The notes beneath the pieces were generated by a model. The model was not told where the DNA came from and ran no database searches. It saw only the letters and a program-made list of their open reading frames with translations. The translations under genes were made by a program, and so were the position numbers. Source: a virus. From it: 40,373 nt of DNA. Positions 1 through 36,529 of this stretch are shown here, one piece after another. Every line of letters starts with the position of its first letter. Position 1 is the stretch's first letter. Location: IMG/VR virus record IMGVR_UViG_3300017737_000019, positions 1-40,373 of that record. The stretch is one strand, 5' to 3'.

Positions 1-153
1 CATTTACAGTCTGATGAGTATAAAGAGAAAGTAGCAACTAAAATTAACAAGAAGATAGACATACCATTTGTAAGTGAAGAAAAAGAACAATTGTTTTTTG
101 AAAAGATTGTTGATTTAGTTACAGATATTGTTGAAGGCATAGTAAAGAAGTAA
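1..153 (+). CDS. Partial small protein upstream of endolysin (C-terminal part)
   Basis: Frame 1 is open from the first base to a TAA at 151-153, giving the last 50 residues of a protein whose start lies outside the window. The visible part is charged, rich in Lys and Glu, and ends in a probable amphipathic helix (FFEKIVDLVTDIVEGIVKK). The stop overlaps the ATG of the next gene as TAATG, the close coupling seen throughout this phage. No family is recognised. Its place directly before a cell-wall peptidase suggests a lysis-related or virion-accessory role, which is inference only. Confidence 0.6.
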   Translation, partial: HLQSDEYKEKVATKINKKIDIPFVSEEKEQLFFEKIVDLVTDIVEGIVKK

Positions 154-551
154 TGCCACGCTTTGGTAAAAGGTCAAAAGAAAGATTAAAAGGCGTTGAT
201 AGCCGTTTAATAGATGTTTTAAATGAAGTTGTAAAGTACTTTGACATAACAGTAATAGAAGGACTTAGAAGCCAAGAAAGACAAAACAAGCTAGTAGTAG
301 AAGGTAAAAGCAAAACTAAGTTTGGTAAACACGTGCAAGGTAAAGCAGTAGACATTGCTCCATACCCTATAGATTGGAACGCAAGAGATGATTTTCATTA
401 TTTAGGTGGATTTGTTTTAGGTGTAGCCTCAAGAATGGGCATTGATGTAAGATGGGGGGGTGATTGGTCGGATTCCAGTTTAAGTAAGAACGCTAGGACA
501 ACAAAAGATAACAATTTTGATGACTTAGTTCACTTTGAAATAAAGGAATGA
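153..551 (+). CDS. M15-family cell-wall peptidase (endolysin, VanY/T5 endolysin-like)
   Basis: A 132-aa single-domain protein with the zinc-peptidase pattern of family M15: H60 and D67 in GKHVQGKAVDIAP, then D124 and H127 in DLVHFE near the C-terminus. H60, D67 and H127 are the expected zinc ligands and D124 the catalytic acid. Members cleave peptidoglycan stem peptides (D-Ala-D-Ala or L-Ala-D-Glu bonds), and phages use them as endolysins. The size matches T5-type endolysins, which are also single M15 domains. There is no signal peptide, so release would need a holin; none is recognised in the window, though the truncated gene upstream or one beyond the edge could serve. Start and stop overlap or nearly touch the neighbours (TAATG upstream, 3 nt gap downstream). 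Confidence 0.88.
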   Translation: MPRFGKRSKERLKGVDSRLIDVLNEVVKYFDITVIEGLRSQERQNKLVVEGKSKTKFGKHVQGKAVDIAPYPIDWNARDDFHYLGGFVLGVASRMGIDVRWGGDWSDSSLSKNARTTKDNNFDDLVHFEIKE

Positions 552-554
552 AAT

Positions 555-1316
555 ATGACCATAAAAGAGCGTGTTGTTGTCTTTCCAGACACTCACTTTC
601 CAAATCACGATGAAAAGGCTTTTAAATGTGCTTTAAAAGTATTGAAAGAAGTAAAACCTTCAGCATTTTTATTATTAGGCGATACAATTGATGGCGAATC
701 AGTTTCCCATTGGCAGTGGTCAAAGAAAAAAAGACCACCGCTTGAATACCAACTTCCAGCTATTAAAAAAGAAATTAAAGAAGGTAATAAAGGACTTGAC
801 AGAATTGATAAAGTCTTGGATAGCATTAATTGTACCAAAAAACAATTTGCGCAAGGAAACCACGAACTCTGGTTCGATCACTTCGTACAAGAAAACCCAT
901 ACCTTGAACATTTTGGCTCAAGACGAGCTTTTAAATTCGATGAACGTGGATATGAATGGCACAAATATGGTGAAGTCTTTAAAGTGTTTGGAAGCAAATT
1001 ACATGCTTACCATGGAGGACACTATATGGGAATTGCCCATGCAAGAACTCACGCCTTACAGTTGGGATGCAACATCATCTATGGGCACACTCACGACTCC
1101 CAAAAAGCAACCATTACTCACATCTCAGGGTCACACATGGCATATTCAATGGGATGCTTAACTGATATGACTAAAGATTATTTAAAAGGAAGACCTACAA
1201 ACTGGAGTCATAACGTTGGCATTGTAGATATTTTAAATAATGGAAATTTTAACTTAGTAGTTCTTGATATTACTGATGGAGTTACAACATACAATGGAAA
1301 AGTAATTAGTGCCTAA
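555..1316 (+). CDS. Calcineurin-like metallophosphoesterase
   Basis: A 253-aa protein with all the metal-binding motifs of the calcineurin-like phosphoesterase fold in order: D12-T-H14, G42-D43, G101-N-H-E104, H153 in AYHGG, and G177-H-T-H180. The full set implies an active dinuclear-metal phosphoesterase. The substrate cannot be read from sequence; relatives act on phosphoproteins, cyclic nucleotides, nucleotides or nucleic-acid ends. It lies between the endolysin and the tail protein in the late operon, so it is made late and may be a virion or lysis-stage factor. An SD-like AAGGAATG precedes the ATG. The next gene begins inside its last codons. Confidence 0.85.
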   Translation: MTIKERVVVFPDTHFPNHDEKAFKCALKVLKEVKPSAFLLLGDTIDGESVSHWQWSKKKRPPLEYQLPAIKKEIKEGNKGLDRIDKVLDSINCTKKQFAQGNHELWFDHFVQENPYLEHFGSRRAFKFDERGYEWHKYGEVFKVFGSKLHAYHGGHYMGIAHARTHALQLGCNIIYGHTHDSQKATITHISGSHMAYSMGCLTDMTKDYLKGRPTNWSHNVGIVDILNNGNFNLVVLDITDGVTTYNGKVISA

Positions 1317-4300
1317 AGAACTATTTGAAATAAAAGCATTTGAAACTGGCAATATTTACAACGCAGACGATAGAGATATTCCAGATGATGCTGCAGTATA
1401 TAGTGAAAACATAGACCCTTATGCACAGTCAGGTTCGTTAATGGCTATACAAGCAGATGCAACTGCTATTAAATCAGCTGTAGATGCAAAACGTATGGCG
1501 ATGATAAATAACAATGGTACACATCAATTAGCTTATATTGATAATAGTGATGGTTATTTAAAGCAAATAGCAGACGTATATACTGGAAGCCCTGCAATTA
1601 CTAATTTAGTAGAAAGTAATTTAGGGTCTGGAACAATTCCTGCAATGCAAACTAATAACAAAGAAGTGCATATAGGTTTAGGTCAAACTAAAGATGCTAA
1701 ATGGGTAGGCAATATACCGCATGGGCAATTTGGAGGTTCTGCTCCAAGTGGATTACAAGCAGAAGACGCTGAATTAATAGCTCCTAGTCCATTTCCACTT
1801 ATGCATACTATTGTGAATGATGCTACAAATACATATGCGTATGGAATTAGCCAAAATGGAACGTATGTTTATAAGTTTAATGTAAGTACAGGTAGGCTTA
1901 TAAAAAGGTCTGATTATTACTTTACTAAAACAAGAGCTATGTGTTTAGCTAGTGATGGACATTTATGGGTATTAGATGAAATAAGTACTAATATAAAAAT
2001 TATAAAAATTGATCCAACAGATATGGATTCAATGATTATAACAAGCGTTAATGCTTTTACAAACGACCAATCAGTAACAGATTGCATTGATATTGATGAC
2101 CATTTATGGTTGAGTTGCAATATTGAAACTGATAATTCTGTATCTGGATTTTTATATAATACTCTTAAATCTGGAATTGTAAGCGGTGCAACAATATCAT
2201 TTACAGATAGAACTCCTTATTTAGGAGCAAGTGGAGGCACTGTATCTGAAGGTAGTTGGACAAATACAAGTGGTACTTCAATACTTCCTACTTTTAACAT
2301 TCCTAAATTAGCATTAAGTGAGCCTGCTAATAGTCAACATTATTGTGGCATAATGATGCACGTAACAACTGATGGAAGTACTACTAATTCTGTAAAGTTT
2401 TGTAAAGCAAATACTGGTACTCCTGCTTATGGAACTACAACTACTTGGTATTATCAAATGATTCATAAAGATAATACTGCAGACCATGTCGACCACAAAG
2501 CAAATGGAGGAGAAGGGGGTAAAGTAAGACCTTTAATTTCTACAACTACTGTACCTTCTGAAATGTATTGCGCTAAAGGCAGCGATAATTCTACTAATTT
2601 ATTTTTATCTCAAAAAGGGTCAGGTAGTACTTCAACGTTATCTACTGTTACAAAACCACAATTTTCACAAACAAACGGAACAAATATAACAAAAAGTTCT
2701 ATAGCGGCAAGTAGAGATTTAGAGGGAATGGTTGGTGATGCTACAGCAAATAACTACAATTTATTTTCTAGTAGTGGAGCAGTAAGATGGGCAACATCTA
2801 ATGGAAGTACAGTAATAGCTAAAAAAGAAGGTGAAGTAGATTTATCGTTTACAGTAAATAGTAATGTTGCTGGAACAATAAATGGAGGTCATAGTCATTT
2901 TTATGCTACTTCTTTTATATATGATGGCTATCAAGAGTCGCCACTAGCTCCTTGGCAATTAGAAACTGGAATAAGTGGGTCAAATGTTTCAATAAATGTA
3001 AAAATAGATTTATATACTGCTACGTTAAACAAAAGAATTAGTCATATAAATTTATACAGGTCATCCCCTGGAAATACTTCTACTCAGCCAACTGGGTTTT
3101 TTAGATTAATAAAAACTGTTTCATTAAAATATGGATGGTTACATACAGATACAAATACAAGCAATCCCAATTGGGGGAATTATTATACTAAAACTGTGCT
3201 TGATACTGGTGTTTCCTATTCTTCATATGAATCAAGAACAGGCATATCAGAAGCACTGCTTAACACAATACCTAAATATGGTCTTAGTGCTAAAGTAAAT
3301 AATTTTTTATACATAACAGATTGTTCGCATATAGACATAGATGACGCAACTAATTATCTGTTTAAATCTAGACCATTTAATTTTGATCAGTTTAACTGGG
3401 CTAAAGACTTTTTATTACTACCTAATAAAGCTACTGCAATAGAATCGTTTAATGGCAGACTGTATGTGTTTTCTGAAAATGAAACCTATGTAGTTAATCC
3501 AGATGGTATGTATATAGAAGATACTATAAAAGGCATAGGGTGTAGAAATCAAAATGGAGTAGTGTCTTCAGAAATAGGTATGTGTTTTATAGATAAAAAT
3601 AGTATCTATCTGCATAATGGACAGGGTATAAATGATATAGGTGCTAAAATAAAAAAAGCACATCAAGTAGATGATACGTATAACTCGTACTCAACTTTAG
3701 AAAAGTTGTGCAATTATAGTGCCAATGACTACACTGGAGACATTGTGATTGCGTATGACTCCTATCGCAAAGCTTTTTGCTTTATGTATACTTATAAATA
3801 TCTTACATCTAGTAGTTTTACACATAGTTGTAATTTAAACAATAACGACACTACTATAACTTGTGACGTTGCAAATTCAAACATTGCTCCAAATCAAGTA
3901 GTGACAGGAAATCATATTCCTGCAGATACAAAAGTTGCTAGTGTTGATAATGATAATAGATTTGATATAAATAATAATGCAACAGCTACAGCTGTTTCAA
4001 CGCTTACATTTACTACAAACACAACATATTACGTGCCTCAGTGTTTAGTGTATACAGTACCTAAAAATAGATGGGATGTGTGGAATAGAACTAATAGCAG
4101 TACTACTACAGATTTTAATACGTATGGAGCAGTGCATGGTAAAAACAATGAATTATTTGTATCTGATACTGACAATGGATTAATCCAACCTTTTGACCCT
4201 ACAAATTCTACAAGATTAGATAATTTTAAATGGTATAGTAAAAAGTTTACTATGGGTGACTCTACTGCAGATAAAAAAATATATAAAGCTGAGATATTAT

Positions 4301-4488
4301 CAGAAGATAATAGCCCTACAATAACTCTTAATACAATTGAAAATAGTTCTAGTTATACAGCATTGTCTGATAAAAAGATTGCACGACACGCTCAAGTAAA
4401 GATTGCAGTTACAGGAGATTCAACTGCAACAGTAGATGCATTGCGTTTAGTATTTAGAAGACTTAGAAGAACAAAGGATATGTCGTGA
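1309..4488 (+). CDS. Large tail protein (P22 gp10/nozzle-like, beta-rich)
   Basis: A 1059-aa protein starting with GTG at 1309, which overlaps the metallophosphoesterase stop by 8 nt. It is rich in Ser, Thr, Asn and Gly and poor in helix-forming stretches, as expected for a beta-structural virion protein. The segment around residues 710-780 (FNGRLYVFSENETYVV followed by an IGCRNQNGVV-type stretch) is typical of the large podovirus tail hub or stabilisation proteins that close the portal channel. The C-terminus is basic (FRRLRRTKDMS). It sits directly before small fibre-like and ejection proteins. Assignment as the tail nozzle rests on context and sequence character; a receptor-binding role for the Ser/Thr-rich middle is also possible. 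Confidence 0.6.
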   Translation: MPKELFEIKAFETGNIYNADDRDIPDDAAVYSENIDPYAQSGSLMAIQADATAIKSAVDAKRMAMINNNGTHQLAYIDNSDGYLKQIADVYTGSPAITNLVESNLGSGTIPAMQTNNKEVHIGLGQTKDAKWVGNIPHGQFGGSAPSGLQAEDAELIAPSPFPLMHTIVNDATNTYAYGISQNGTYVYKFNVSTGRLIKRSDYYFTKTRAMCLASDGHLWVLDEISTNIKIIKIDPTDMDSMIITSVNAFTNDQSVTDCIDIDDHLWLSCNIETDNSVSGFLYNTLKSGIVSGATISFTDRTPYLGASGGTVSEGSWTNTSGTSILPTFNIPKLALSEPANSQHYCGIMMHVTTDGSTTNSVKFCKANTGTPAYGTTTTWYYQMIHKDNTADHVDHKANGGEGGKVRPLISTTTVPSEMYCAKGSDNSTNLFLSQKGSGSTSTLSTVTKPQFSQTNGTNITKSSIAASRDLEGMVGDATANNYNLFSSSGAVRWATSNGSTVIAKKEGEVDLSFTVNSNVAGTINGGHSHFYATSFIYDGYQESPLAPWQLETGISGSNVSINVKIDLYTATLNKRISHINLYRSSPGNTSTQPTGFFRLIKTVSLKYGWLHTDTNTSNPNWGNYYTKTVLDTGVSYSSYESRTGISEALLNTIPKYGLSAKVNNFLYITDCSHIDIDDATNYLFKSRPFNFDQFNWAKDFLLLPNKATAIESFNGRLYVFSENETYVVNPDGMYIEDTIKGIGCRNQNGVVSSEIGMCFIDKNSIYLHNGQGINDIGAKIKKAHQVDDTYNSYSTLEKLCNYSANDYTGDIVIAYDSYRKAFCFMYTYKYLTSSSFTHSCNLNNNDTTITCDVANSNIAPNQVVTGNHIPADTKVASVDNDNRFDINNNATATAVSTLTFTTNTTYYVPQCLVYTVPKNRWDVWNRTNSSTTTDFNTYGAVHGKNNELFVSDTDNGLIQPFDPTNSTRLDNFKWYSKKFTMGDSTADKKIYKAEILSEDNSPTITLNTIENSSSYTALSDKKIARHAQVKIAVTGDSTATVDALRLVFRRLRRTKDMS

Positions 4489-4745: not shown

Positions 4746-5606
4746 ATGCCAACAGAATTTGTACCACAATCAGTTACTGCAAATACATCAATTCCTTTTA
4801 GAGCAGGCGGACAACCTGTAGGGAATATGTTTAATAGTGGAATAACAGGAAGATTATTTCAAGGTGGTAAAGCATTATACGGATTAGCATCAGGCAACCC
4901 TAAAGCAATGTTAGGTGGGGCATTAGGTTTACTTGGAATGCATAAATCTGGTAAAGCAGCTAAATTAGTAAATCATGATTTTGATTATGGACATAAAACA
5001 AGTCAGTACGATCAAAACCAACAAATGAATGCTTCAATGAGTAAAATGGGTGGATTAGGAGATGAGTTTTCTCAAAGCTATCGTCAAATGCTAAATCCTG
5101 GCTCACAGTACAATAATAGATTATTTCAAAACCTTAGACAAAACGTAGCAGACACAGGAAATCAGACTGTTAATCAAATGAACAATGCAATGGCTTCAAG
5201 AGGTATGACTGGAATGGGAGGCGTTTTTGATGCAATCCAAAATAGAGCAGGTGGAGAAGCATATAGTCAAGGTATGCAAGGTATTATGAATCAATCTGCA
5301 CAACAAGCAGGGCAATTTGGGCAACTTGGTTTAGGAGCGTATCAACAAGCTGGTGGACTTGCTAGTCAAGCAGATGCTAGAGCATTGCAAAACAATCAAT
5401 TTAATGCTGGCAGTGAAAATCAATACGAACAATTTTTAGCTGAATCAAACTATAACCAAGATATGAACAATGCTAACACTTTGAACAATATGAATGCTCA
5501 ACAAGGCGCAGGGTTAATGGGCATGGCTGGTAATATTTTAGGAAGTTTGTTTAACAAACAAGCACCAATGGCGCCAAATGGCGGAGTAATTAAAAATTAT
5601 ACCTAA
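4746..5606 (+). CDS. Internal virion / DNA-ejection protein, Gln/Asn/Gly-rich
   Basis: A 286-aa protein with a strong AGGAGG site before its ATG. Residues 25-75 are glycine-rich and hydrophobic (LFQGGKALYGLASG, GGALGLLGM), followed by a long low-complexity Gln/Asn/Met/Gly region (residues 80-255) and a second hydrophobic segment near residues 257-272 (LMGMAGNILGSLF). This layout of helical low-complexity sequence between membrane-active segments is typical of ejected podovirus proteins such as P22 gp7/gp20 or T7 gp14. Family membership is not certain from sequence alone. It is the first of three consecutive candidate ejection proteins, with the 478-aa and 3374-aa products following. Confidence 0.62.
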   Translation: MPTEFVPQSVTANTSIPFRAGGQPVGNMFNSGITGRLFQGGKALYGLASGNPKAMLGGALGLLGMHKSGKAAKLVNHDFDYGHKTSQYDQNQQMNASMSKMGGLGDEFSQSYRQMLNPGSQYNNRLFQNLRQNVADTGNQTVNQMNNAMASRGMTGMGGVFDAIQNRAGGEAYSQGMQGIMNQSAQQAGQFGQLGLGAYQQAGGLASQADARALQNNQFNAGSENQYEQFLAESNYNQDMNNANTLNNMNAQQGAGLMGMAGNILGSLFNKQAPMAPNGGVIKNYT

Positions 5607-5646
5607 CCCATATAGTTAATAAAATTATAATAGGAGTATTTATATC

Positions 5647-7083
5647 ATGGCATTAAAAGATTCAAAAATGTTTGATTTAGGATATGGCAATCTTCTTGCT
5701 GGTATTCAACGTGGTCAAGACAAAGCAGATAGGGCTCGTGAAAGAGCAGAAGACAGAGAGTTTACTCGTGAACAAAAAAAGCAAGACCAAGAGTTTTCAA
5801 AGTCTGAACGCATTGAAGGTCAAGAGTTTGCTAAAAACGAAGCTGAGTTAAATAGAACTCAAGAAACATCTGTAGTTGGACAAAAAGGCGATATAACAAG
5901 TAGGCAAATAATTGAAAAAGCAGAGCAACAAAAAATATTAAATCAACAAATAGGCAATATTGATATATCTAAAATAAGAACTCAAGCTCAGTTTAATAAA
6001 GTTATGCAAGATGCAAAAATGAAATTTCAAGGAAAAGAAGGAGATAAGAATAGAACTTTAAAAAGTCAATTATTAGACACAGAAATTACCGCCAGAGAAA
6101 CACAATGGAGAGCTCAACTTAATAGTACAGAAAATTTAGCTACCGAAGCTAGACAACATGAAAAATGGTTAGCTGAATTTAAACAAACTGGAAATGAAAA
6201 ATTATTAAGAGAAAGATTTACTTTTGATGCATCTGAAAGTGCATTAGGTAGAGAATCAAGTGCGTTAGCTTTAGATAAAAAATTAAGTGCAAGTGCTTTA
6301 TCTGATCAATTAAGAATAAAATCTAACGAAGCAATTAATAGTGCAAACATTATAGCTACTGCAGCTGAAAGTGTGTTAAAAAGAGCGCATGATAAAGGTA
6401 TGTCAAAACAAGAAGCGCAACAAAGAGCAGATAATTACAAATTAAAACTTAAAGATGATTTTGATTTTTATAAAAAACAAGGCACACTTGGTTTAGAATT
6501 AGCTAGAATAGGTAAAGAACAAGAAGCTGATAAAACGTATTCATTTGACCCATCTTTTACAAATAAATTGTACGAAGAAACAGGTTTAATGGGGTTTGAT
6601 GAAAATGAAATTTTAGCAGATTTTAGAGGTGATGCAGAAGACCCTAAAAAACCTAATATTTTTTCTGGACTTGCTACAAATGTACAACAAGTAATGCAAA
6701 CTTCTTCTGACAATCCTCAAAGACAAGAAGTGTTAAATGCATTAATAAAAGCACAAGAAAGGTTTTCTGACCCAAGATTTTATGATTCAGGAGCAGACAG
6801 AACTATGGGTCACTCAAATGAAGCTTTTTCTAATTTAAAAGGCATTCAAAACCTTATGCAGTTAATGGGAGAAAAAGGGATTCAATCAATTAAACAAATT
6901 GACCCAAATGCTAACGATAGTGGTTATAGTGAAAATATGCTTGGGCCAGTAATGCCTACTATTAATGCAGCAGGTTCTGCAACTTATAATGCAACACAAG
7001 ATGTTATTAATTCTTTAATTCAAAATTATCAAGAAAATAAGAAAAATAAGACAATATATCCTGATATGCTTATTGGCTCTTAA
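5647..7083 (+). CDS. Internal virion / ejection protein with coiled-coil N-terminus
   Basis: A 478-aa protein with a TAGGAG site before the ATG. Residues 20-80 are highly charged with Arg/Glu/Lys/Gln heptad-like repeats (DKADRARERAEDREFTREQ), and long helices continue to about residue 290, so an extended coiled coil is likely. The rest is hydrophilic without recognisable catalytic motifs. Together with the preceding 286-aa and following 3374-aa proteins it occupies the position of the ejection-protein trio of P22-like podoviruses. It probably forms part of the internal core or trans-envelope channel; this is inference from context and composition. Confidence 0.6.
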   Translation: MALKDSKMFDLGYGNLLAGIQRGQDKADRARERAEDREFTREQKKQDQEFSKSERIEGQEFAKNEAELNRTQETSVVGQKGDITSRQIIEKAEQQKILNQQIGNIDISKIRTQAQFNKVMQDAKMKFQGKEGDKNRTLKSQLLDTEITARETQWRAQLNSTENLATEARQHEKWLAEFKQTGNEKLLRERFTFDASESALGRESSALALDKKLSASALSDQLRIKSNEAINSANIIATAAESVLKRAHDKGMSKQEAQQRADNYKLKLKDDFDFYKKQGTLGLELARIGKEQEADKTYSFDPSFTNKLYEETGLMGFDENEILADFRGDAEDPKKPNIFSGLATNVQQVMQTSSDNPQRQEVLNALIKAQERFSDPRFYDSGADRTMGHSNEAFSNLKGIQNLMQLMGEKGIQSIKQIDPNANDSGYSENMLGPVMPTINAAGSATYNATQDVINSLIQNYQENKKNKTIYPDMLIGS

Positions 7084-7087
7084 ATAA

Positions 7088-10000
7088 ATGGATCAAAATC
7101 AACTCGCACAATACATAAATGCGTATCGTGTTAGTCCTCATCTTTTTAATGACGATGAAGTAGACGAACTTACTAAGTACGCTAAAGAAGCTAATATCAA
7201 CTTCAATAGAAATATGGATGTTGAGGAAAGCAAACAATCTGGTGTTGTAAGCCAATTTATAGGTGGAGTAGCCGAAGGGTTTCTTGGGCCATTAAACATT
7301 TTTGGTGGCTCTACTAAAGACCCTGTTACATCTGCGCAACAAATATCTAGAAGCATTGGTAGTCTAATTGGTTTTGTTCCTGGGCTATTAGGTGGCCCTA
7401 TAAAAGCAGGTGGAACACTTGTAGCTAAAGCAGGTAAAAAAGTATTAGGTAGAAAGATTGAAGCAATTGGTGGAGCGTTAATGCTTGAGTCTATTCCAAT
7501 ACGTGCTGCTAATAAAATTCTTGGTAAGGAAGTGGGTGAAGGAGTACTTGCTAAATACGGAGGCAATGCAGGGCAAATAGCAGATAGTTTTTTAAAAGGC
7601 AATACTGTTATGGGCAATGTTGCGCAATCAGCAGTTCATCTTGGTACTGCTAGTGCAGTTAGTGAGTTTTGGAAAGGCCCTGATGCAGTAAAAGATAGCT
7701 TTATACATGGTGCTATAGCAGGCGGTGCATTTGGCACTATAGGAAACTATAAACTACTTATAGAAAAAGCAATAGGCGCACCTAGTCCTATAGTAAGAAA
7801 GTTTGCTGAAAGTAAGCTAAGAGAAGGTATTGCAAAAGGGTTAGCAGGAAGTGCATTTCAAGGTGGTATGGCTACAATGCATGGTGCTGATACTGCAACT
7901 CAAATATATGAATATGCATTAGGGGCATATTTTGGCTCTGTACACCCATCGGTACATCAAAAAATAGGTAGAGAGTATTTTAATAAATATAGTGCTGATA
8001 GAAGTAAAATGAATTATAAAATGCTTGAAGACCCTGAATTTAATTCACTTCCTAGTGATGCTAGAGCAGAAGTTAAATCTATACATGATAAATACGTTGG
8101 TGAAAGATTTGACCAAGTAGCTAAAACAATGAATGGCATTGACCCTTTTGATGTTAGTAAGGGAGCGCAAGAATTAAGAAATGCTTTTGCTGAAGAGAGA
8201 TACGAAAATTATAGTACTCGTAATAAAAAGTCTAGAGAAGACATGACTGCCAAAGATGAACTTGAAGCGCAAAAAGAAATTGTTGCTGAACATGAAGAAC
8301 TAGGCAATATTATTCAAGAAGGTACTCGTATTGGAGAAGAAATTGCTACAATTAAACCAGACAAACTTGAAGGTGAAACTAAGCGTATATACGATACACT
8401 GACTAAAGAACAAGTAGAGCAGATAAAAGAAGGCAATTACGATTTAATCTATAATGAGTTTGGTAAACGTAATGAGTTTTTTAGTGAACTAGAAAACAAA
8501 TACACAGGACAAGATTTTATACGTCAACATGAAGACGCTAGAATACAATCTGAATTAGATAGTGACCCTGTATTACGTAGGTTTTTTAATGATGTAAATA
8601 CACAAGTACAATCTAAAGAAGGCAATGAATTAACGCATTTAGAAATAGCAGATAAAGTAGTTAAGGCAAATGAACTTGTAAAAAAGAAACTAGGTGAACA
8701 AAAAGAAAGACAACAAACAGGTGAAAGCTTAGAAAAATCATCTGCAGGTATGAAAGTAGGCGATAATTTTAACGCAAATTTTAAACAAAAAGTTAGAAGG
8801 TTTGAATCAGATTCTAGTTTAGAGCCAGGTAAATCAGTAGTTGGTAGAATATTTAAAAATGGAGATATTTTAGTTTATGAAGGCACTAAAAAACTTAATT
8901 CTAAAGAACGTAATAAACTTATTAAAAAAGAAATATCAGAAGCTGAAAAACAATGGTTTCAAACAGAAAAATCATTAATAGAAGGAGGTTTTAGTAAGGA
9001 ACAAATAAGCAAAGCAAAAAATAAAATACCAGAACTACGCTCTGATTATTTAAAAAATAGAACTAAAAATTTAAAAGAACAAGAAACTGGAAAAAATACT
9101 AAACTAGAAAAAACTACATCTAAAGAAGACGCTAAACTTTTAGAGATAAAAAATAAAATAGCTTCATTGAGAAAAAAAGATGGAAGTATTAGTAAGGAAG
9201 ATTTACCAGAACTTCAAAGATTGCAAAAAGAAATAGTTAAGCGACAAGGATTTTTAAATACAGATACAACAGGCAGTAAACAACGTATTCAAAATATAAA
9301 ACCTGAAAAAATGCCATTGATTGATAAATTAGTAGAAAAAGAAATAACTGATGGCATAAGAAAAAACAAAAACCCAGATAGTGTGCAAAATAAAGTAGCT
9401 GAAATATTGAAAAGCGAAGGCATGTATGTATCAGATATGAATACATTATCATTATATATTAAAAACAGAATAAATAATGGGGAAACAATAGGTAATAATA
9501 AAGAATCATTTGGTGTGTGGAGACAAGGTGAAACAAGTAAAATCAAACAATCTCCTAAACAAACAGACCCACTTAAACAAGAATTTGACAGATATGAACT
9601 ATTTAAAAATGAGGTATATAAAGAGTTAGCTGTTAAGCCTACTGATACTATAGATAGAGCATTAACTCAAAGCTATGAGCGTTTTAGACAGAATAAAAAG
9701 CAATACCATAGTGCATTTGATTTAGATAGCGGTCAATTAAACAAAATAGAAGAGTATTCTAATAATGTACGTAAGGTTTTATCTCACCCTATGCTTCCGC
9801 ATGAAAAAATATATAAGCATGGTAATACTTATGTGATAGATGAAATCATTCAAAATGGTAAATCATATGATCCATTAGCTACAAAAATCCGTTTTGAGAA
9901 CAATGAATTAATTGTTGACCATATATTGTCTCCAGAAAAAATGGCTGACCTTATGGTTCAAGTAGCTAAAAAAACTAAAAGTCAATACATATGGACACCT

Positions 10001-13000
10001 GAAAAAGACAAAGGTAAGCTTATAGTTCGTACTTATCATCCTAATACTAAAAAAACAAAATTAAATGATATTTTAAAAACAAAAAAAGAACGTAAACATT
10101 TTACGTTTGACCAACAAGAGTTTTTAAAACTTACAGGTATTGATAAATTAGGTTCAAAGTCTAAAAAAATGTGGAAAGAACTACACGAAGATATGTTTAA
10201 AAGTAACTATCTATATGACCCTAAAGGTCAGTTTAAAAGTGCATTAGACTTAGTTAAACGTAGTAGTTTACTTTCAAGTAAAGATTATGCATTAAATGCT
10301 AACAAATTTAAAGATTTTACTCCAGACGGAAAATTAGATGTTATTTTTGTTGATGATGTTGCAAGTGCAAAAGACCCAAACAATCCTATTAAGCCTGAAA
10401 CATACAACGTTAAACGAATTGGTAAAGATGGTAAGGAAGTTGTTGAAAAAAGAGTACATGAAAGTGACGTAGATGGTTATATAGTACTTCATACTGAATT
10501 ATTTAATAAAATAGTAAAAGACATGGGGTTAGACCCTACAACATCCCACATTAAGCCTACTATAGCTACAGAAATAGATGGCAAGTTATTTTTATTAAAA
10601 GGCGGAATACATCCCTCACAAAAAGGATTTGATGCAGTAATGCCAAATAAAGGTAGTATGATTGTTATGACATCGGCTGCTAAAGTAAATCCTGGCAAAA
10701 CTTATACTGCATATCCAAATAAGAAAAATGAGTACAAATTTTATAAAGATGGTAAAGAAACAATACCTGAAACAACAAAAATTAATATAGATGATTTACG
10801 AATTAATTTTGGAGTATATGGAGATAAACACGCTTTAAGCCCTGTATCAATTAAAAGACAGATGCATAGCACTCTTGCAGGATTAAATATAACTGCAAAA
10901 CAACAACAAGCATTAATGCAAATATTTAAAGATTCTTATTTAGGCATTGAAAAACAAAATAAATACGTACAAGAAATGCTTGATAATCCTAACTTAAAAG
11001 TACCTGCAGATTTTAACATTAGCAGAATAGGGCATAAACAAGTAGCCGATATTTTAAATAGCAATTCAAAAAGCCCTGTAGTTAAAAAATTAGTAGATGA
11101 TATATTTAAAATAAATAGTGAGCGTAAACGAAGCGAGTCTTCAGAAATTGATGACATTGATTTAATGGAATCAAAGAATTACGCTGATAGAATTGCAAAA
11201 GAATTTAAAGACACAGATTATAATGCATTGGCAGTACGCTTTTTAGAAGACCAATCAGGAAACTTTAACGATGCAGTATTGCGATACGTTACAGATAAGT
11301 ATTTAAATCCTCAATACGATTTTAGTGCATCTTCATGGGTAGCTGGTAATCATGCTTTGTTTAAAAATAGATTACCTAATAAAGAAATTAGAGAAGATCA
11401 TTTTATGCTTGGTCATAGTATGAAAGATATGAAACACAAAGAATTTGGCACACTTGAAAGAGCTTGGAATGCTTTTCAAGCAATAAAAAAAGATGGTTTT
11501 AAAACAGCAAAAGGAAGTGTTTATATTTTAGAAAAAGGAAATAAAACAACTAGAACTAAAGCAAAAAGACCTGAACATAAAGATTTTGGACTAAAAGAGA
11601 CATCTCTTGCTACTGTGTATTTGACAAAAGATCAAGCGATGCGATTAGCAAGTAAATTTGGTGTACTTAATGCTAATGGTAAAAAATCATTGTCTTTATC
11701 AAAAGATGGTATTTCAGTAAATGGAAAACTTTATGGTGGAGCTGTTAAACCTAAAAAAGGTTTAATGCCTCTTGAGATATGGCAAAAAGATGGGCAATTG
11801 TCAAAATATCATTTGGGGAATAAAATTACTGAACTTTTAAAAGGTGCTAATAAAAAAGAAATACAAAAATTTAAAGACGAACATTTACGTATTGCAGTAA
11901 TGCGTGTACCTAGTCCTGATATTAGTGGTACTAGAGTATTGTATTTTGATGGCTTTACAGGAAAGAAAAATGGTGCATATGATTATGGTACTTATCTTAG
12001 ACAAAAAGACCATTTTAATATTGATGGTGCTGATGTAGATGGTGATAAAGTATTTTTATATCAAGGTATGCCTAAAGAATATTTAGATGGCGTTTATGCT
12101 AAGAAAAACAATTTAGAGCGCAAAGGCATTGCAATTGAAAACAAAGCTAAAAAAAATGACCAATTATATAGTAAAACAAAAGACCCTGTAGCATATAAAA
12201 AAGAATTAGAATACATTAATAGCAGTATATCTCAATACATGCCTAATGCATTAATTCGTTCAGGTAGGTCTGCTAAAATAGGCAAAGATGGTATGGGTAC
12301 AATTGTATCTGCAAAAGAATATTTAAATATCATTTTTAGTGACCTTATAAATAAAGGCGGAATGAAAGAATTTAAATTAAAAAGCAAAGGTGAGGTCTAC
12401 GGAGTTTTAAAAACAGGAGGAATGGATAAAAAAATTCTTGAAAGAGAAAATGGATATAAAGACCATTCGTTAGAAACTTCTTCAAGAACTGCTGATTCTA
12501 GTGGTTATTATAGGCTTATTGATGCTTATAAAATGACAGATATATTATTAAACAAAGGTATGCCTTACGCAAGAGTAATGTTGTTTAAAGGTAAAAAACC
12601 AATGCTAGATAGTAATGGTAAGCAAATAAGTCGTAAGCCAAGCTATGGGGATTTACGAAATATTGAAGAATATGCTGATTTATTTAGAGTTAAGAATAAT
12701 TTATATCGCAGTAAAAATCAAGAAGGTAAAAGACCGAATTTAGATGCAGTGCAAAATAATTTGCGTGCATTTAGCGAACTTAATATAAAGCACCAATCTA
12801 GCCTTACTGAATTAGGAAGTGCATTTGGCAAACCTGAAAATTTAATTAATACAAATTTAATACGACCTGAAACTATTAATTTTAATAAATACAATCGTTT
12901 TGTACGTGAGTTTCAAGGAGGTTTTAAAGACCCTAGTTTATTAAAATTTATTCGTAGAATGAAAATTACCATTGTTCCTGATTTGGGTCAACGCAGATAT

Positions 13001-16000
13001 GATAAAACAGATAGTAAAAAACCTGTAAAAGAAACTACATATAAATCAAATGATCTTATGGACGCTACAAGCGTATTAATTCAAAACAAAGCTGGTGAGC
13101 GTTTATATAACGACATGATTAAAAATGGTTATAAAGAAGCAGACTTTATTGAGTTTGCAGACAGAATATCATTAGAGGCAATTAGTTCTAAAGATGATTA
13201 TGCAAAAATACGTTCTATTGACCCTTCATTACGTAAAAATAAAAAAGTACGTACTACTGAAGACGCAGAAGAACAAATAAGGGCAAGGCGTAATGAAATA
13301 TACGAAACTGCAAAAGAATTAGGCATAAGTCCTATCAATGCATCTAGATATTTTGATATGTATATGCTTGGCAGTTTATATCCTCAAACTAGAACGCAAA
13401 AAGAATTACGCATTGTACACGAAAATAAATTAAAAGAAGCTCAAAAAGCTCCTAATACATTGCGTAATGGCAAGTTTAATAAAAACAAGCAATTAACTAT
13501 TAAAAGATTAACAGAAGAATTAGATAATTTTAAAAAATATTACAATAAAACAAGTAGGCATAATTATCCATATCTAAGTAATGAAATACCAAACTCTAGT
13601 AAACGATTTTTTATGAATACGTTTAGTCAAATTTTTGATAAAGCAGTTATGCCTAAGATAAAAACAGAAGTTGAAAAAGCTAGTGTAAATCCTGTTATGG
13701 ATAACGTTAATAAAAAAGGAGCTGAAACAACTCAACAAAAAGACCAAGGAATAAAAGAAAAGTTTGAAGAATTATTGCCACATAAAAATCTTTTTGATTT
13801 AAAAGTATCAGATAAAAGCACTAAAGTACCCGCAGATGTAAAAGCAGATGCTAAACGTATTGTAGAGGCATTTAAAAAGTTTCCAGAACATTCATTAGAT
13901 GATATAAATGGCATGTTTATTGACATGATTAAAGATAGAGATAGAGTTGGATATGGTATTGAAGAAGCTACTTATGCAGATTTAAAACATTTTGCTAATG
14001 CATTGGAAGAGATTGTTTACAATAGACCTAAAGGCGATAAAGTTTCTTGGGCTGATAAATATTTATTTCCTCAACGGGTTGCAGAAAAACAATTTACACA
14101 TGATTTTAGCATTCCAGTAGTTAAGGAAGTCAATTTTAGAGATGCTAAAGGTAAGCTTGGCAGAACAAGTATTAAAGTGCCATTAGGTACAATGCAACAT
14201 TTACAAAATAGTTTTGGTAGTATTTATACTCTTCAAAATATAGTTACAAATATTGCACAAGAAGAACGTGATGCATTTTTTACATGGCGCGCTCCTATAC
14301 TAGACAAACCTAATGGAGTTGGTGAAGCTAATAGGTTGCATCAAGCAGCAATGACTAGGTGGCTTAGAAATGAAGGCAAAAGCGAACTTGACAAAGAATA
14401 CAATTGGAAAGAATGGAAAGAAAACGAAGCATTATATAATTCATTAAAAAACAATACATACGATACAATTGTTAAAGGGCAAAGAATTGAAGTAACTGGT
14501 GAGAAGTTAATGCGTACTATTGCAGAGCAAAACGATGCATTTTTAACTAAAGTATATAATGGGTTAGTTAAATCAAATTTAGATTTCAGTTTAATAGATG
14601 TGTATTCGTTATCTGGAGAAAAAGGTCAAACACCTAATTACGAAGCGTTTAACAAGCAAAATAGTTTTATGAAATACAACGCTAAAACAGGCAGAGTAAA
14701 TCTTGAATTTTTAGAAAACAAATATTTAAAACCTTTAGCAGAAAATGGAAGACACATATTAAAACAATTAGGTAAAAATGGATTTACAGCTGAATTATTA
14801 GGTCGTATACGTTACGAACAACAATTAGAATCCTTTGCAAGTAAAAAGCCTTTAAATCAGCAAAAAGCATATAGAGAAAGATATAGACAAAAATTTAAAT
14901 TAAGTGATAGTATAGAATTTGAAGGGTATAGAGACAATGGCACTTTTTTTAAAGGTGTTGGTGAAGTTAAAGGTAGATATTTCCCACGAATGTTTCATGG
15001 CGATACAAAAGCAAGTAAAATTAAACTGCAAACGTTTATGGAAAATAAGCGTATAGAGTTAAGAAAACAGTTAGAACAAAAATATACATATGATCCATCG
15101 CTAACTAAAGAACAACGTGAAGCTAATTCAAAAATACCAATAGATAAACGTTTTGAGTTAAAGAATAGTGATTTTAAACGAATTGAAAATACAACAACTC
15201 AAGAATCACAAGACGCTATGTATAAACAGATTATTAATGAAAAGATAGCTGAACTTGAAACAATGTTTGAAGCACAATTAGGTAAATCATTAACATTAGA
15301 TAATGGTAGTGGGCAAGAAGGTGCTGATTATTTATGGTCAAAATATCAAAATAAAGAACACGCTGAAAGGCAAGGTCACTTTTCAAAACCTGGCAGTGGT
15401 CAGTCAAGAGGTGAAGAGCCTATGCCTGGAGCTAGTTATGATTTTAAAGTAATTGAAGCTTATCAAGAACAATGGATTAATTCATTTTTTAAAAATGCTA
15501 CATCATTAATAGGTAAAAGAGCAATAGATAGGTACGTTGAGTTAAATCCATTAAAAGACAAAGAAGCTACAGAAGGTTGGGCTAATCTTATGAGAGATTA
15601 TACTACAGATGTATTAGGTCAGCCATCTATGTATAATCCTAAAACATTTGGACTTAAAAAAGCAGAAATTGCAAAATACGAAGCAATTATCAAAGCATAC
15701 GACAGAGAAAGAAAAGGTAAAAAACTTAAATTTAAAACAGTAGAAAAAATATTTGAAAATAGAGCTGAAGATATAGCTCAAAAAATGGCTCAAGGCAAAG
15801 AGTTTACAATATCTGATGCTATGAAAGAACGTGCTGAATCTGAATTAGCAAAAAACAAAAAGTTTCAAACATGGGATAAACGGTTATTTTATTACGTAAC
15901 AGATGAAGCTGGAATTAATGCTTTAGATAAAGTAAGTACAAAACTATGGGGTAGAAAAGATAAACCTAAATTACCTTTTTATGGAGAACTACCAAAAAGT

Positions 16001-17212
16001 CCAGAAGCTAGAAGACAAACACTATCAAGAATATTGCATAAAATAGGAGCATCAGAAGCTAAATGGCAGTTAATTACATTGTTATCACACCCTAAAACAG
16101 CAGTAGCTAACATGTTTGGCGGTAGTCACAATACAATAGCAAGTGCAGGTTTATATAATTTTGCTACTGCATCTTTTAACAAAAAACGTTTATTAGCTAC
16201 CACATTTAAAGGAACAAAACTTAATGATGGTACTGAAATAACAACATCAGAACATTTACGTAGGTTTGCTGAAGAAAGTGGAGCGCATGAAACGTTTTAC
16301 GTAACAGAAGCATCATTAGAACGTAAGTTTGCAGGTAAAGAAGCAAAAGAGTTTGTAAGAGAAGTTCAAGAAAGCCTTAAAAACAACGCTAATCTTTCTG
16401 AAGCTGATGTTTTTTCCATTGCTAAGAAATATAAAGTAACAGATGCTATTACTAACATTGCTGCAATACCAATGCGTATATCTGAGAAAAAATTAAGAAC
16501 AGATAGTTTCTTTGCACACTATTTAAACGCATATAACAACCTTAAAGATTTTATACCAAACATTAAACACAATGATCCATACGTTATTAATATGGCATTA
16601 AAAGGAGTAGAAGCAACACAGTTTTTATATCATAGTGCATTTAGACCTAATTATAGTAGAACTGCAATTGGTAAAATGATGACACGTTTTCATCCTTTTG
16701 CATGGAACTCAGTACGTTTTAGAAGGCAAACATATCAACGTGCTGCTAGGTATGGATTTAAGCCAGGAACTGATTCTTTTAATAAATTTAAACGATTAGC
16801 TACATTAGATATGTTTGCATTATCATTAGCTAATATGTTTACTAGTAGCGTTTTTGATGCAACAGTACCACCTCCGTTAAATTGGATGCAAGATACTGCT
16901 GATTGGCTTTTTGGTGATGAGCGTGAAAGAGAAAGAGCTTTCTTTTCTTCATGGCCTCATCCTGTATTAGCACCATTACAAATAGTAACTCCACCTATTG
17001 CTAGATACCCTATGACATTAATTAATGCTACTATTAATGGCAATTGGGAACGTTTTGCAGATTATTATTTATATACGTTTTTTCCATTTGGAAGGTTAGG
17101 ACGTAGTGTAGTTAAAACAATGGAAACACCTGAAATGTGGGTAGAGCAAATGACAGGCATACCTATACATGGCATTGGCAGAGAAAAAAGAAATCTAGTA
17201 GAATCTGAGTAA
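7088..17212 (+). CDS. Giant 3374-aa virion protein with RNA-polymerase-like (DxDGD) core
   Basis: One uninterrupted frame of 3374 codons, a quarter of the window, beginning 5 nt after the previous stop with no clear SD. Residues 55-230 hold Gly/Ala-rich hydrophobic stretches suited to membrane insertion. The middle carries three ordered motifs: D1129-G1130-Y with K1156-P and L1170-K1171-G-G; R1606-V-P1608-S-P; and G-A-D1649-V-D1651-G-D1653-K. This order and spacing resemble the two double-psi beta-barrels of multisubunit-type RNA polymerases, where a lysine-bearing barrel precedes an RxP...DxDGD barrel (DFDGD in beta', YonO and crAss-like virion RNAPs). Near the C-terminus H3001-PKTAVANMFGG resembles domains of giant phage 'polyvalent' proteins. 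Position after two ejection proteins implies it is packaged and injected. The polymerase call is a motif-level inference; DxDGD could instead bind calcium in a structural protein. Confidence 0.6.
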   Translation: MDQNQLAQYINAYRVSPHLFNDDEVDELTKYAKEANINFNRNMDVEESKQSGVVSQFIGGVAEGFLGPLNIFGGSTKDPVTSAQQISRSIGSLIGFVPGLLGGPIKAGGTLVAKAGKKVLGRKIEAIGGALMLESIPIRAANKILGKEVGEGVLAKYGGNAGQIADSFLKGNTVMGNVAQSAVHLGTASAVSEFWKGPDAVKDSFIHGAIAGGAFGTIGNYKLLIEKAIGAPSPIVRKFAESKLREGIAKGLAGSAFQGGMATMHGADTATQIYEYALGAYFGSVHPSVHQKIGREYFNKYSADRSKMNYKMLEDPEFNSLPSDARAEVKSIHDKYVGERFDQVAKTMNGIDPFDVSKGAQELRNAFAEERYENYSTRNKKSREDMTAKDELEAQKEIVAEHEELGNIIQEGTRIGEEIATIKPDKLEGETKRIYDTLTKEQVEQIKEGNYDLIYNEFGKRNEFFSELENKYTGQDFIRQHEDARIQSELDSDPVLRRFFNDVNTQVQSKEGNELTHLEIADKVVKANELVKKKLGEQKERQQTGESLEKSSAGMKVGDNFNANFKQKVRRFESDSSLEPGKSVVGRIFKNGDILVYEGTKKLNSKERNKLIKKEISEAEKQWFQTEKSLIEGGFSKEQISKAKNKIPELRSDYLKNRTKNLKEQETGKNTKLEKTTSKEDAKLLEIKNKIASLRKKDGSISKEDLPELQRLQKEIVKRQGFLNTDTTGSKQRIQNIKPEKMPLIDKLVEKEITDGIRKNKNPDSVQNKVAEILKSEGMYVSDMNTLSLYIKNRINNGETIGNNKESFGVWRQGETSKIKQSPKQTDPLKQEFDRYELFKNEVYKELAVKPTDTIDRALTQSYERFRQNKKQYHSAFDLDSGQLNKIEEYSNNVRKVLSHPMLPHEKIYKHGNTYVIDEIIQNGKSYDPLATKIRFENNELIVDHILSPEKMADLMVQVAKKTKSQYIWTPEKDKGKLIVRTYHPNTKKTKLNDILKTKKERKHFTFDQQEFLKLTGIDKLGSKSKKMWKELHEDMFKSNYLYDPKGQFKSALDLVKRSSLLSSKDYALNANKFKDFTPDGKLDVIFVDDVASAKDPNNPIKPETYNVKRIGKDGKEVVEKRVHESDVDGYIVLHTELFNKIVKDMGLDPTTSHIKPTIATEIDGKLFLLKGGIHPSQKGFDAVMPNKGSMIVMTSAAKVNPGKTYTAYPNKKNEYKFYKDGKETIPETTKINIDDLRINFGVYGDKHALSPVSIKRQMHSTLAGLNITAKQQQALMQIFKDSYLGIEKQNKYVQEMLDNPNLKVPADFNISRIGHKQVADILNSNSKSPVVKKLVDDIFKINSERKRSESSEIDDIDLMESKNYADRIAKEFKDTDYNALAVRFLEDQSGNFNDAVLRYVTDKYLNPQYDFSASSWVAGNHALFKNRLPNKEIREDHFMLGHSMKDMKHKEFGTLERAWNAFQAIKKDGFKTAKGSVYILEKGNKTTRTKAKRPEHKDFGLKETSLATVYLTKDQAMRLASKFGVLNANGKKSLSLSKDGISVNGKLYGGAVKPKKGLMPLEIWQKDGQLSKYHLGNKITELLKGANKKEIQKFKDEHLRIAVMRVPSPDISGTRVLYFDGFTGKKNGAYDYGTYLRQKDHFNIDGADVDGDKVFLYQGMPKEYLDGVYAKKNNLERKGIAIENKAKKNDQLYSKTKDPVAYKKELEYINSSISQYMPNALIRSGRSAKIGKDGMGTIVSAKEYLNIIFSDLINKGGMKEFKLKSKGEVYGVLKTGGMDKKILERENGYKDHSLETSSRTADSSGYYRLIDAYKMTDILLNKGMPYARVMLFKGKKPMLDSNGKQISRKPSYGDLRNIEEYADLFRVKNNLYRSKNQEGKRPNLDAVQNNLRAFSELNIKHQSSLTELGSAFGKPENLINTNLIRPETINFNKYNRFVREFQGGFKDPSLLKFIRRMKITIVPDLGQRRYDKTDSKKPVKETTYKSNDLMDATSVLIQNKAGERLYNDMIKNGYKEADFIEFADRISLEAISSKDDYAKIRSIDPSLRKNKKVRTTEDAEEQIRARRNEIYETAKELGISPINASRYFDMYMLGSLYPQTRTQKELRIVHENKLKEAQKAPNTLRNGKFNKNKQLTIKRLTEELDNFKKYYNKTSRHNYPYLSNEIPNSSKRFFMNTFSQIFDKAVMPKIKTEVEKASVNPVMDNVNKKGAETTQQKDQGIKEKFEELLPHKNLFDLKVSDKSTKVPADVKADAKRIVEAFKKFPEHSLDDINGMFIDMIKDRDRVGYGIEEATYADLKHFANALEEIVYNRPKGDKVSWADKYLFPQRVAEKQFTHDFSIPVVKEVNFRDAKGKLGRTSIKVPLGTMQHLQNSFGSIYTLQNIVTNIAQEERDAFFTWRAPILDKPNGVGEANRLHQAAMTRWLRNEGKSELDKEYNWKEWKENEALYNSLKNNTYDTIVKGQRIEVTGEKLMRTIAEQNDAFLTKVYNGLVKSNLDFSLIDVYSLSGEKGQTPNYEAFNKQNSFMKYNAKTGRVNLEFLENKYLKPLAENGRHILKQLGKNGFTAELLGRIRYEQQLESFASKKPLNQQKAYRERYRQKFKLSDSIEFEGYRDNGTFFKGVGEVKGRYFPRMFHGDTKASKIKLQTFMENKRIELRKQLEQKYTYDPSLTKEQREANSKIPIDKRFELKNSDFKRIENTTTQESQDAMYKQIINEKIAELETMFEAQLGKSLTLDNGSGQEGADYLWSKYQNKEHAERQGHFSKPGSGQSRGEEPMPGASYDFKVIEAYQEQWINSFFKNATSLIGKRAIDRYVELNPLKDKEATEGWANLMRDYTTDVLGQPSMYNPKTFGLKKAEIAKYEAIIKAYDRERKGKKLKFKTVEKIFENRAEDIAQKMAQGKEFTISDAMKERAESELAKNKKFQTWDKRLFYYVTDEAGINALDKVSTKLWGRKDKPKLPFYGELPKSPEARRQTLSRILHKIGASEAKWQLITLLSHPKTAVANMFGGSHNTIASAGLYNFATASFNKKRLLATTFKGTKLNDGTEITTSEHLRRFAEESGAHETFYVTEASLERKFAGKEAKEFVREVQESLKNNANLSEADVFSIAKKYKVTDAITNIAAIPMRISEKKLRTDSFFAHYLNAYNNLKDFIPNIKHNDPYVINMALKGVEATQFLYHSAFRPNYSRTAIGKMMTRFHPFAWNSVRFRRQTYQRAARYGFKPGTDSFNKFKRLATLDMFALSLANMFTSSVFDATVPPPLNWMQDTADWLFGDERERERAFFSSWPHPVLAPLQIVTPPIARYPMTLINATINGNWERFADYYLYTFFPFGRLGRSVVKTMETPEMWVEQMTGIPIHGIGREKRNLVESE

Positions 17213-17488: not shown

Positions 17489-18397
17489 ATGCCTTTAAAA
17501 GAGAATTTGGTCAAAGATCAATGGGGTAATATATATTATCGAAAGCAGATTGATAAAAAGCGCATTATTTTACCTGCTTATACTAAAAAAGATAAAATAG
17601 CCAATAAGTTGCATTCAGCTTTAGAGTACCAAGCTTTAAATGAATACTACAATCCAAAAGTAAGAGTAGATAACATTAGTTTTAAAAAGCTTGTTAAGCT
17701 ATTCTTAAATGATAAAGAGAATAATTCAAAATGGGCTAATGCAACAAAAGAAACATATACATATGTATTAAAAGCATATGTTAAAAACGGAGTATTGCCA
17801 AAAAATAAACAAACAGCAGTAGGGTACATCGCTAGAATAAATGCATGTATTAATTGGGGTACACGTAAAAAGTACAATACAAAAGAAAAGCTTAGAAAGA
17901 TTCCAAAAAGAATAGGAAGAACTAGAGTTTTTAATGATAAGGAATTAGCTTTAATAATGAACAGTCATCCTAATGCTGATTTACAAGAGTTTTTTAACTT
18001 TGCTTATTATACAGGTGCAAGACGTGGTGAGATATGTAATCTTAAAGCACAACAAATACATCCTACATATATTGAAGTAAAAGGCAAATCAGATAAGCGT
18101 ATTATTAAATTAAATAGTCAAGCTAGACACATACTGTTTTCTAGAGAAAAACTATGGGGCTACAAAGGTGATTTTGTGAGTAAAAAGTTTAAGGCATACC
18201 TAAGGCAGCTTAACATAAAAGACGCACAATTTCATGACCTACGCAGGACATTTGGCTTTAATCTTATTAAAAAGGGATTACCTATTTACACAGTTAGTAA
18301 ATTGTTAGGGCATAGCAGTATTAACATAACAGAAAGCCATTATGCTCCTTTATTAGTAAGTGACATTGAAGAATTTAAGTTGCCTACTGGCAGTTAG
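17489..18397 (+). CDS. int: Tyrosine site-specific integrase
   Basis: A 302-aa tyrosine recombinase with the complete catalytic set: R178 in YYTGARRGEI, K200 in the beta-hairpin (VKGKSDKR), H249-x-x-R252 in HDLRRTFG, H275 in LLGHSS, and the nucleophile Y285 in ITESHYAPL. The N-terminal ~60 residues look like an arm-binding domain and residues 63-140 the core-binding SAM-like domain. It integrates and, with a directionality factor, excises the phage genome at the adjacent attP in tRNA-Pro. AAAGGAG precedes the ATG. The gene is transcribed rightward and converges on the leftward early operon, overlapping the last gene of that operon by 14 nt. No excisionase is recognised; one of the small leftward genes could serve. 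Confidence 0.95.
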   Translation: MPLKENLVKDQWGNIYYRKQIDKKRIILPAYTKKDKIANKLHSALEYQALNEYYNPKVRVDNISFKKLVKLFLNDKENNSKWANATKETYTYVLKAYVKNGVLPKNKQTAVGYIARINACINWGTRKKYNTKEKLRKIPKRIGRTRVFNDKELALIMNSHPNADLQEFFNFAYYTGARRGEICNLKAQQIHPTYIEVKGKSDKRIIKLNSQARHILFSREKLWGYKGDFVSKKFKAYLRQLNIKDAQFHDLRRTFGFNLIKKGLPIYTVSKLLGHSSINITESHYAPLLVSDIEEFKLPTGS

Positions 18398-25634: not shown

Positions 25635-26006
25635 CTAGTTCTTCGTGAGTTTCAATCGAGTACTAGCGTATGTGTATAACTGTCTTTTTAAATACACATC
25701 AGACTTATCTGTTTTAGATAGTTTGTTGTATATATACGACTCATTGTATCCTAAGACATATCTAAGATTGTCTTTGTATTTGTGTAATTGTCTTTTGCTC
25801 ATCATTCTTATTTCAATAATTTGATTAGCATATGTTTTTCCATAAGTTTGTGACCTTGCTAGTTCTGTATCACGATGAAGGTCAGTAGATATGGCATTTT
25901 TGAATAATGTACCTAATGTTTTAATAGGTAATTCAGTTTGTCTAAAAGCATTAAGTTTTTCAATGGTTGAATAGTTTAAGCTTTCTTTTAATGGTGCGTT
26001 TATCAT
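25635..26006 (-). CDS. First gene of the leftward early operon, unknown function
   Basis: A 123-aa basic protein (Lys/Arg/Tyr-rich C-terminus YLKRQLYTYASTRLKLTKN) with AAAGGAACAAAC before its ATG. No family is recognised. As the first gene after the early promoter, divergent from the HTH-PAS regulator, it takes the place of a Cro-like or antitermination regulator in lambdoid phages, but no clear HTH is visible. Confidence 0.65.
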   Translation of the reverse strand: MINAPLKESLNYSTIEKLNAFRQTELPIKTLGTLFKNAISTDLHRDTELARSQTYGKTYANQIIEIRMMSKRQLHKYKDNLRYVLGYNESYIYNKLSKTDKSDVYLKRQLYTYASTRLKLTKN

Positions 26007-33310: not shown

Positions 33311-33355
33311 TGGGGTAGCAACGAGCATTCTGAGGTTAATAATTTTTCCTCCAGT

Positions 33356-35536: not shown

Positions 35537-35561
35537 CAAATAGTCCTTATAGGAGAAATAA

Positions 35562-36500: not shown

Positions 36501-36529
36501 TGGTTTAATTTTAACGGAGAAAACAAAAC

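Follow-up and report, generated by a model that had tools for sequence, protein, structure and literature searches.

The window analysed here, a stretch of 40,373 nucleotides taken from an IMG/VR virus record, encodes a protein of 3,374 residues and raises the question of whether a phage of this kind carries its own RNA polymerase in the virion. Multisubunit-type RNA polymerases are known to be packaged by phiKZ-like jumbo phages, crAss-like phages and P23-45. An earlier note on this DNA had read a two-barrel RNA polymerase from D1129-G, K1156-P, LLK1171GG, R1606-V-P-S-P and GAD1649-V-D1651-G-D1653-K, all of which are found at these positions; the interval given for them, 10472-12049, indeed runs from the first base of D1129 to the last base of K1654. 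Since the 3,374 residues contain a single DxDGD and five R-x-P, one sequence proves little, and conservation is the test. From the comparisons described here, residues ~900-2050 quite probably constitute a single-chain two-barrel DNA-dependent RNA polymerase that is packed in the virion, injected, and employed to transcribe the first phage genes.

The giant gene and its neighbourhood

In the window, a plus-strand late block leads to the giant gene, which is followed by the integrase and a minus-strand replication block (Table 1). Synteny is observed among the relatives, which keep the lysozyme, the metallophosphoesterase, the tail gene, the giant gene, often the integrase, and then replication genes on the opposite strand; in every close relative that is informative, the giant gene is the last of the late block. 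In the distant subfamilies (L135-L189), no PHROG integrase adjoins the giant gene at the small number of loci examined, and temperateness is therefore claimed for the window's clade only. The phage had been called P22-like, which holds only loosely: its portal is remotely similar to P22-type portals, and the only clear PDB match of its capsid protein is a 'VP1' major capsid. The 286- and 478-residue products encoded directly upstream of the giant gene, which belong to no Pfam or PHROG family, are candidate small ejection proteins.

Table 1. Positions in the window of the giant gene, its parts and its neighbours.
Feature	Positions	Strand	Basis or remark
Lysozyme, metallophosphoesterase and tail/spike-like gene upstream of the giant gene	153..4488	+	conserved synteny
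Two genes (286 and 478 aa) directly upstream of the giant gene	4746..7083	+	partial conservation
Giant protein ORF, 3,374 aa	7088..17212	+	final gene of the late block
Conserved N-terminal part, residues 1-550	7088..8737	+	BLAST to relatives; invariant Gly positions
Variable linker, residues 553-830	8744..9577	+	comparison with relatives
Two-barrel RNA polymerase region as modelled, residues 960-2010	9965..13117	+	AlphaFold and Foldseek
First barrel, beta-like (DPBB-B/DPBB1), residues ~1120-1250	10445..10837	+	49/49 invariant residues; profile alignment
D1129-G1130	10472..10477	+	49/49 invariant
K1156	10553..10555	+	49/49 invariant
K1171, proposed counterpart of QDE-1 K743	10598..10600	+	invariance and profile alignment
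K1199 (SAAK), proposed counterpart of QDE-1 K767	10682..10684	+	invariance and profile alignment
Optional insert between the barrels, residues 1465-1592 (FKTAKGSVY..TTR domain)	11480..11863	+	alignment with relatives
Second barrel, beta'-like (DPBB-A/DPBB2), residues ~1595-1665	11870..12082	+	profile alignment to crAss virion RNA polymerase
R1606-V-P, RxP of beta'	11903..11911	+	49/49 invariant
Predicted catalytic loop D1649-V-D1651-G-D1653	12032..12046	+	Asp triad 49/49, 65/65
Long helix past the second barrel, residues 1719-1755	12242..12352	+	model secondary structure; conserved G1732, K1743
C-terminal domain, residues 2950-3374, most conserved part	15935..17209	+	63% mean column identity (alignment A4)
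Tyrosine integrase directly downstream of the giant gene	17489..18397	+	PF00589, E 5.4e-20; same site in many relatives
Terminase, portal, candidate scaffold and major capsid genes of the same late block	31817..37846	+	

Full-length homologs of the giant protein span 2,674-3,682 residues. Its N-terminal 550 residues contain glycine-rich helical stretches of the ejection-protein type and may function as such, while the C-terminal domain, which is more strongly conserved than the polymerase itself and matches no family in Pfam or PHROG, may bind the virion, the ejectosome or the membrane. The linker (553-830) is hypervariable and has been swapped even in orthologs whose remaining sequence is 80-90% identical. 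The insert between the barrels, a mobile module of pattern FKTAKGSVY...TTR...EIW...H.GN.I, is cleanly missing from two orthologs and absent from most relatives, and is the sole part of the giant protein with matches in phage records (PBC5 gp22, MT835534 and CRP-9 gp54). PBC5 gp22 is annotated as DarB-like; a DarB-like antirestriction identity was rejected for the giant protein, as all three matches are confined to the insert and the matching proteins have no DxDxD motif and do not match the polymerase part anywhere else. The cpYpsA SLOG family (PF12694) is matched by one relative (E 6.4e-12); the carrier is likely L096/L072, two handles for the same contig, where a long insertion with SLOG-like sequence stands upstream of the first barrel and is possibly a counter-defence or nucleotide-binding module. 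The polymerase appears, from these alignments, to accept foreign modules at such joints. For polyvalent proteins, in which effector modules are shuffled within a giant injected chain, the candidate signs here are the insert shared with PBC5 gp22 and the cpYpsA domain of one relative.

Elsewhere in the window, the replication block includes a DUF932-family protein (24652-25377, minus strand; PF06067, E 2.2e-8). A divergent gene pair lies at 25635-26835, and its plus-strand member encodes a 240-aa protein with a weak N-terminal helix-turn-helix below the Pfam cut-off, a candidate repressor of the early block. Three near-copies of TACAGTATATATACAGTA are found at 30745-30822, immediately before ORF 30829 and the terminase gene, and are candidate operator- or promoter-like elements; repeat and promoter scans of the early region of the window returned nothing convincing and no candidate early promoter.

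Conservation and fold of the two barrels

The closest relatives (L001-L004, 78-94% identity in the best segment) are too close to be informative for a conservation test. A search of IMG/VR with a DNA pattern for DGADxDGD collected ~25 giant proteins that share this motif block, mostly at 30-35% identity, along with three more remote ones, and a C-terminal profile search of IMG/VR viral contigs gave at least 244 relatives, the best 80 of which were retained, with 65 reading frames covering the polymerase region. The resulting alignment comprises 49 representatives and 1,051 columns, at 17-88% identity to the window. Twenty positions are invariant throughout, namely K1057, D1129, G1130, K1156, K1171, K1199, G1286, P1408, S1413, R1606, V1607, P1608, G1614, L1618, F1620, G1647, D1649, D1651, D1653 and D1803, and 11 of the 22 residues singled out in the earlier note are among them (hypergeometric p = 2.6e-15). 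The key lysines, RVP and the Asp triad are thus confirmed at the level of the family, whereas the GG after K1171, the S-P after RVP and the inner glycine of DxDGD vary; the note had overlooked K1199, which adds one more invariant lysine to the first barrel.

Because most representatives from the C-terminal profile entered the alignment through a loose R-x-P...D-x-D-x-D pattern, the triad is partly selected for in the 49 sequences; the lysines are unaffected, as is the count among relatives whose reading frame covers the site, where the triad is kept in 65 of 65, as DLDGD (27), DVDGD (25), DKDSD (8), DLDID (3), DNDGD (1) or DLDAD (1). The glycine position is occupied by G, S, A or I, and the DLDID of three relatives has the DxDID form of the proven crAss-like enzyme of phi14:2 (DFDID). 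DKDSD marks a subfamily (L139, L140, L154, L168, L170, L173, L174 and L177); if its members are active, the glycine of the classical motif would be dispensable. Comparison with the L080 ortholog gives an overall dN/dS of 0.14, with 0.04 for the first barrel and 0.06 near the Asp barrel; with L079 the corresponding values are 0.21, 0.14 and 0.05. Judged from the codon comparison with L080, purifying selection is strongest in both barrels. Synonymous divergence to orthologs is low near the catalytic loop (11870-12082; pS 0.17-0.21, compared with ~0.42 for the whole gene), which suggests recent recombination or constraint on the DNA itself.

PDB sequence searches with the single sequence and with profiles gave no direct match to any solved RNA polymerase, and the case therefore rests on fold and profile-profile comparison. 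An AlphaFold model of residues 885-2080 built from a 24-sequence alignment (pLDDT 74.7, pTM 0.72) has QDE-1 or RDR2 as all of its 17 best PDB matches (best E 1.1e-5). For the model of residues 960-2010 built from 49 sequences (pLDDT 80.6, pTM 0.79), the top Foldseek match in the PDB is the virion-packaged RNA polymerase of phi14:2 (6VR4; E 1.3e-5, prob 1.00); QDE-1, RDR2 and beta' chains from bacteria come next, and all 50 matches listed are two-barrel RNA polymerases. The top matches, 6VR4 and QDE-1 (E 1e-5 to 1e-3), span both barrels over ~1,000 columns, and no T7-like right-hand fold is found among the PDB matches listed for either model. In the BFVD library, the best matches are viral proteins (A0A516..., E 2.5e-23), with the crAss-like phage protein cr272_1 ninth. 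Global TM-scores against the named PDB matches are low (0.2-0.37) and the rmsd is large (14-22 A); the modelled domains appear to match in order rather than in whole-molecule shape, their arrangement either differing or being mis-modelled.

The order of the motifs is observed independently of the models. Aligned by HHalign to seven crAss virion RNA polymerases, the 49-member profile places RVP...GADVDGDK onto YRIP...GSDFDIDK (E 8.9e-6; score 59.4, against 19.8 for the best of 60 column shuffles and 22.1 on reversal). Taken alone, region 1100-1300 matches the lysine barrel of the crAss enzymes (E 2.9e-4; score 38.1, against 20.0 for the best of 150 shuffles, 14.0 on reversal and 17.3 with the crAss barrel excised). 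D1129-G is paired with D[GA], K1156-P with KP, K1171 with the lysine of HKNS/DKM/LKYS, and K1199 (SAAK) with that of the [AG]VK.G-type block, the K1171 column being partly a manual reading since HHalign gaps put this residue a few positions off. In QDE-1, the two invariant barrel lysines, K743 and K767, are 24 apart (PMC1750930); the spacing of K1171 and K1199 is 28 residues, and these two are therefore more likely to be the functional pair than K1156 and K1171. The fold search and the motif-by-motif alignment agree with the two-barrel reading of the earlier note, which had named the absence of two barrels, or Asp residues in a surface calcium loop, as speaking against it: the best PDB matches are the phi14:2 enzyme and QDE-1, both barrels align with those of crAss, and the fold matches span two double-psi beta-barrels, which would face one active cleft.

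After the Asp barrel, in the region of helix 1719-1755, no profile match to the crAss enzymes was found; this modelled helix is tentatively assigned as the bridge-helix element. No trigger loop was recognised in the polymerase region. The segment EASSRTADSSNYY (~1796-1808), considered as a bridge helix for its likeness to beta' TALKTANSGYLTRR, was dropped, the deep alignment keeping D1803 alone.

No Pfam or PHROG family was detected in the polymerase region, which has no match in 50,697 phage records (tblastn), and no relative was found in 84,980 prokaryote genomes searched for prophages by short-peptide seeding; such scans of collections rely on short seeds and can miss relatives. The giant-protein family was not found in the literature searched, and some of its members may already stand in the two-barrel survey of the P23-45 authors, who used the same DxDxD search and aligned 23 RNA polymerase families (PMC10770324).

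A proposed packaged polymerase and its alternatives

In the proposed mechanism, the first barrel (D1129, K1156, K1171, K1199) would hold the nucleotide and the RNA end through its lysines, while RVP and the DVDGD loop of the second barrel would bind the catalytic magnesium. The giant protein would belong to the ejection machinery carried in the virion and would enter the cell together with the DNA or before it; the enzyme would then transcribe the first genes from the incoming DNA, before or without the host RNA polymerase. We infer catalysis, the choice of template and promoter, packaging, injection and timing alike; packaging is likely by analogy, considering the genome position and precedent. 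Packaged single-chain two-barrel RNA polymerases that are injected and transcribe the first genes in this manner are known from phi14:2 and P23-45 (PMC10770324, PMC7886860), and the genes for polyvalent proteins and for the N4 polymerase also sit among late virion genes (PMC5512222).

The crAss-like virion enzymes, such as that of phi14:2 (annotated gp77, 2,180 aa, in KC821624), resemble the window enzyme in carrying the lysine barrel and then the Asp barrel in one chain of a giant virion-type protein, in the alignable motifs D[GA]..KP..K..[SG]xxK and R[IV]P..G[SA]DxDxDK, and in fold, where they are the best match. However, identity is ~10% with detectable homology limited to the two barrels, crAss genomes are ~90-100 kb with another gene order, and crAss-like phages have been described as unable to form lysogens (PMC8375218), whereas the window phage has an integrase and its enzyme lies within a 3,374-aa protein whose N- and C-terminal parts are unrelated. 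P23-45 gp96 likewise has a two-barrel RNA polymerase built into a giant virion protein (PMC10770324) and its R-P..GxDxDGD aligns, yet the profile match is weak and confined to the Asp motif, and the polymerase is N-terminal in a siphovirus tape measure of 5,002 aa. YonO of SPbeta, compared by description, is also a single-chain two-barrel DNA-dependent RNA polymerase of a temperate phage (PMC5467207), but of ~100 kDa, and no statement of its virion packaging was found in the literature. The N4-type enzyme of Schitoviridae is an ejected virion RNA polymerase of ~3,500 aa (PMC12633501), but its catalytic fold is of the T7-like single-subunit type and bears no relation to double barrels. QDE-1 and plant RDR2 share the fold and the Asp triad, but are cellular RNAi enzymes without ejection-type flanking parts.

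Among the alternatives, an active two-barrel RNA polymerase that is made during infection and not packaged is unlikely. P23-45 does possess a non-virion enzyme of the same class, gp64 (PMC10770324), but this known form is compact (616 aa), whereas the enzyme considered here sits inside a giant protein of 3,000-3,700 aa that closes the late structural block, together with a C-terminal domain conserved beyond the polymerase. It is more improbable still that the two barrels perform a different reaction, as a primase, an RNA-templated polymerase of the QDE-1 type or a DNA polymerase of the PolD type. QDE-1, which copies RNA and DNA templates, is indeed among the nearest folds, and the double barrel is common to PolD; against this, the nearest fold of the better model is a virion DNA-dependent RNA polymerase, PolD is absent from the 50 matches listed in either PDB search, and the phage has a DnaB-like helicase gene of its own, which weakly matches a primase family.

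That the region is a polymerase remnant retained as a structural scaffold of the ejection protein would fit the fast drift of overall identity and the largely non-polymerase make-up of the giant protein, but the invariant residues are exactly the catalytic ones, in 49/49 and 65/65 sequences, and the barrels have the lowest dN/dS against the closest ortholog, so this reading is very improbable. DxDGD is also present in EF-hand-like and other calcium loops, and a chance motif or calcium-binding loop in an unrelated fold could have produced it here; the fold search, the controlled profile alignment and the co-conservation of both barrels make this scarcely credible.

Novelty and biological meaning

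The earlier note had foreseen a new arrangement. The kind itself is known, since single-chain two-barrel virion RNA polymerases occur in crAss-like phages and in the tape-measure fusion of P23-45 (PMC10770324); what is new is the family, its small, integrase-bearing (apparently temperate) podovirus-like carriers, and the placement of the enzyme inside a giant ejection-type protein with swappable inserts. The window phage probably delivers a transcription enzyme of its own along with its DNA, as probably do hundreds of uncultured relatives. It appears rather likely that a two-barrel virion RNA polymerase housed in the ejection protein is carried by a lineage of small temperate podovirus-like phages that is widespread and uncultured. 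Pfam and PHROGs had missed this family, despite its at least 244 relatives in IMG/VR, and members of the window's clade carry an integrase.

With 49 sequences aligned for a two-barrel enzyme that has diverged deeply, the list of indispensable residues is sharpened to 20 of about 1,050, and data are added to the debate over the origin of cellular and RNAi polymerases. If the proposed reading is true, two-barrel virion RNA polymerases would be far commoner than the crAss and P23-45 cases suggest, and early transcription of these phages is predicted to be rifampicin-resistant. A lysogen-forming phage would then decide between lysis and lysogeny under transcription that had started independently of the host RNA polymerase.
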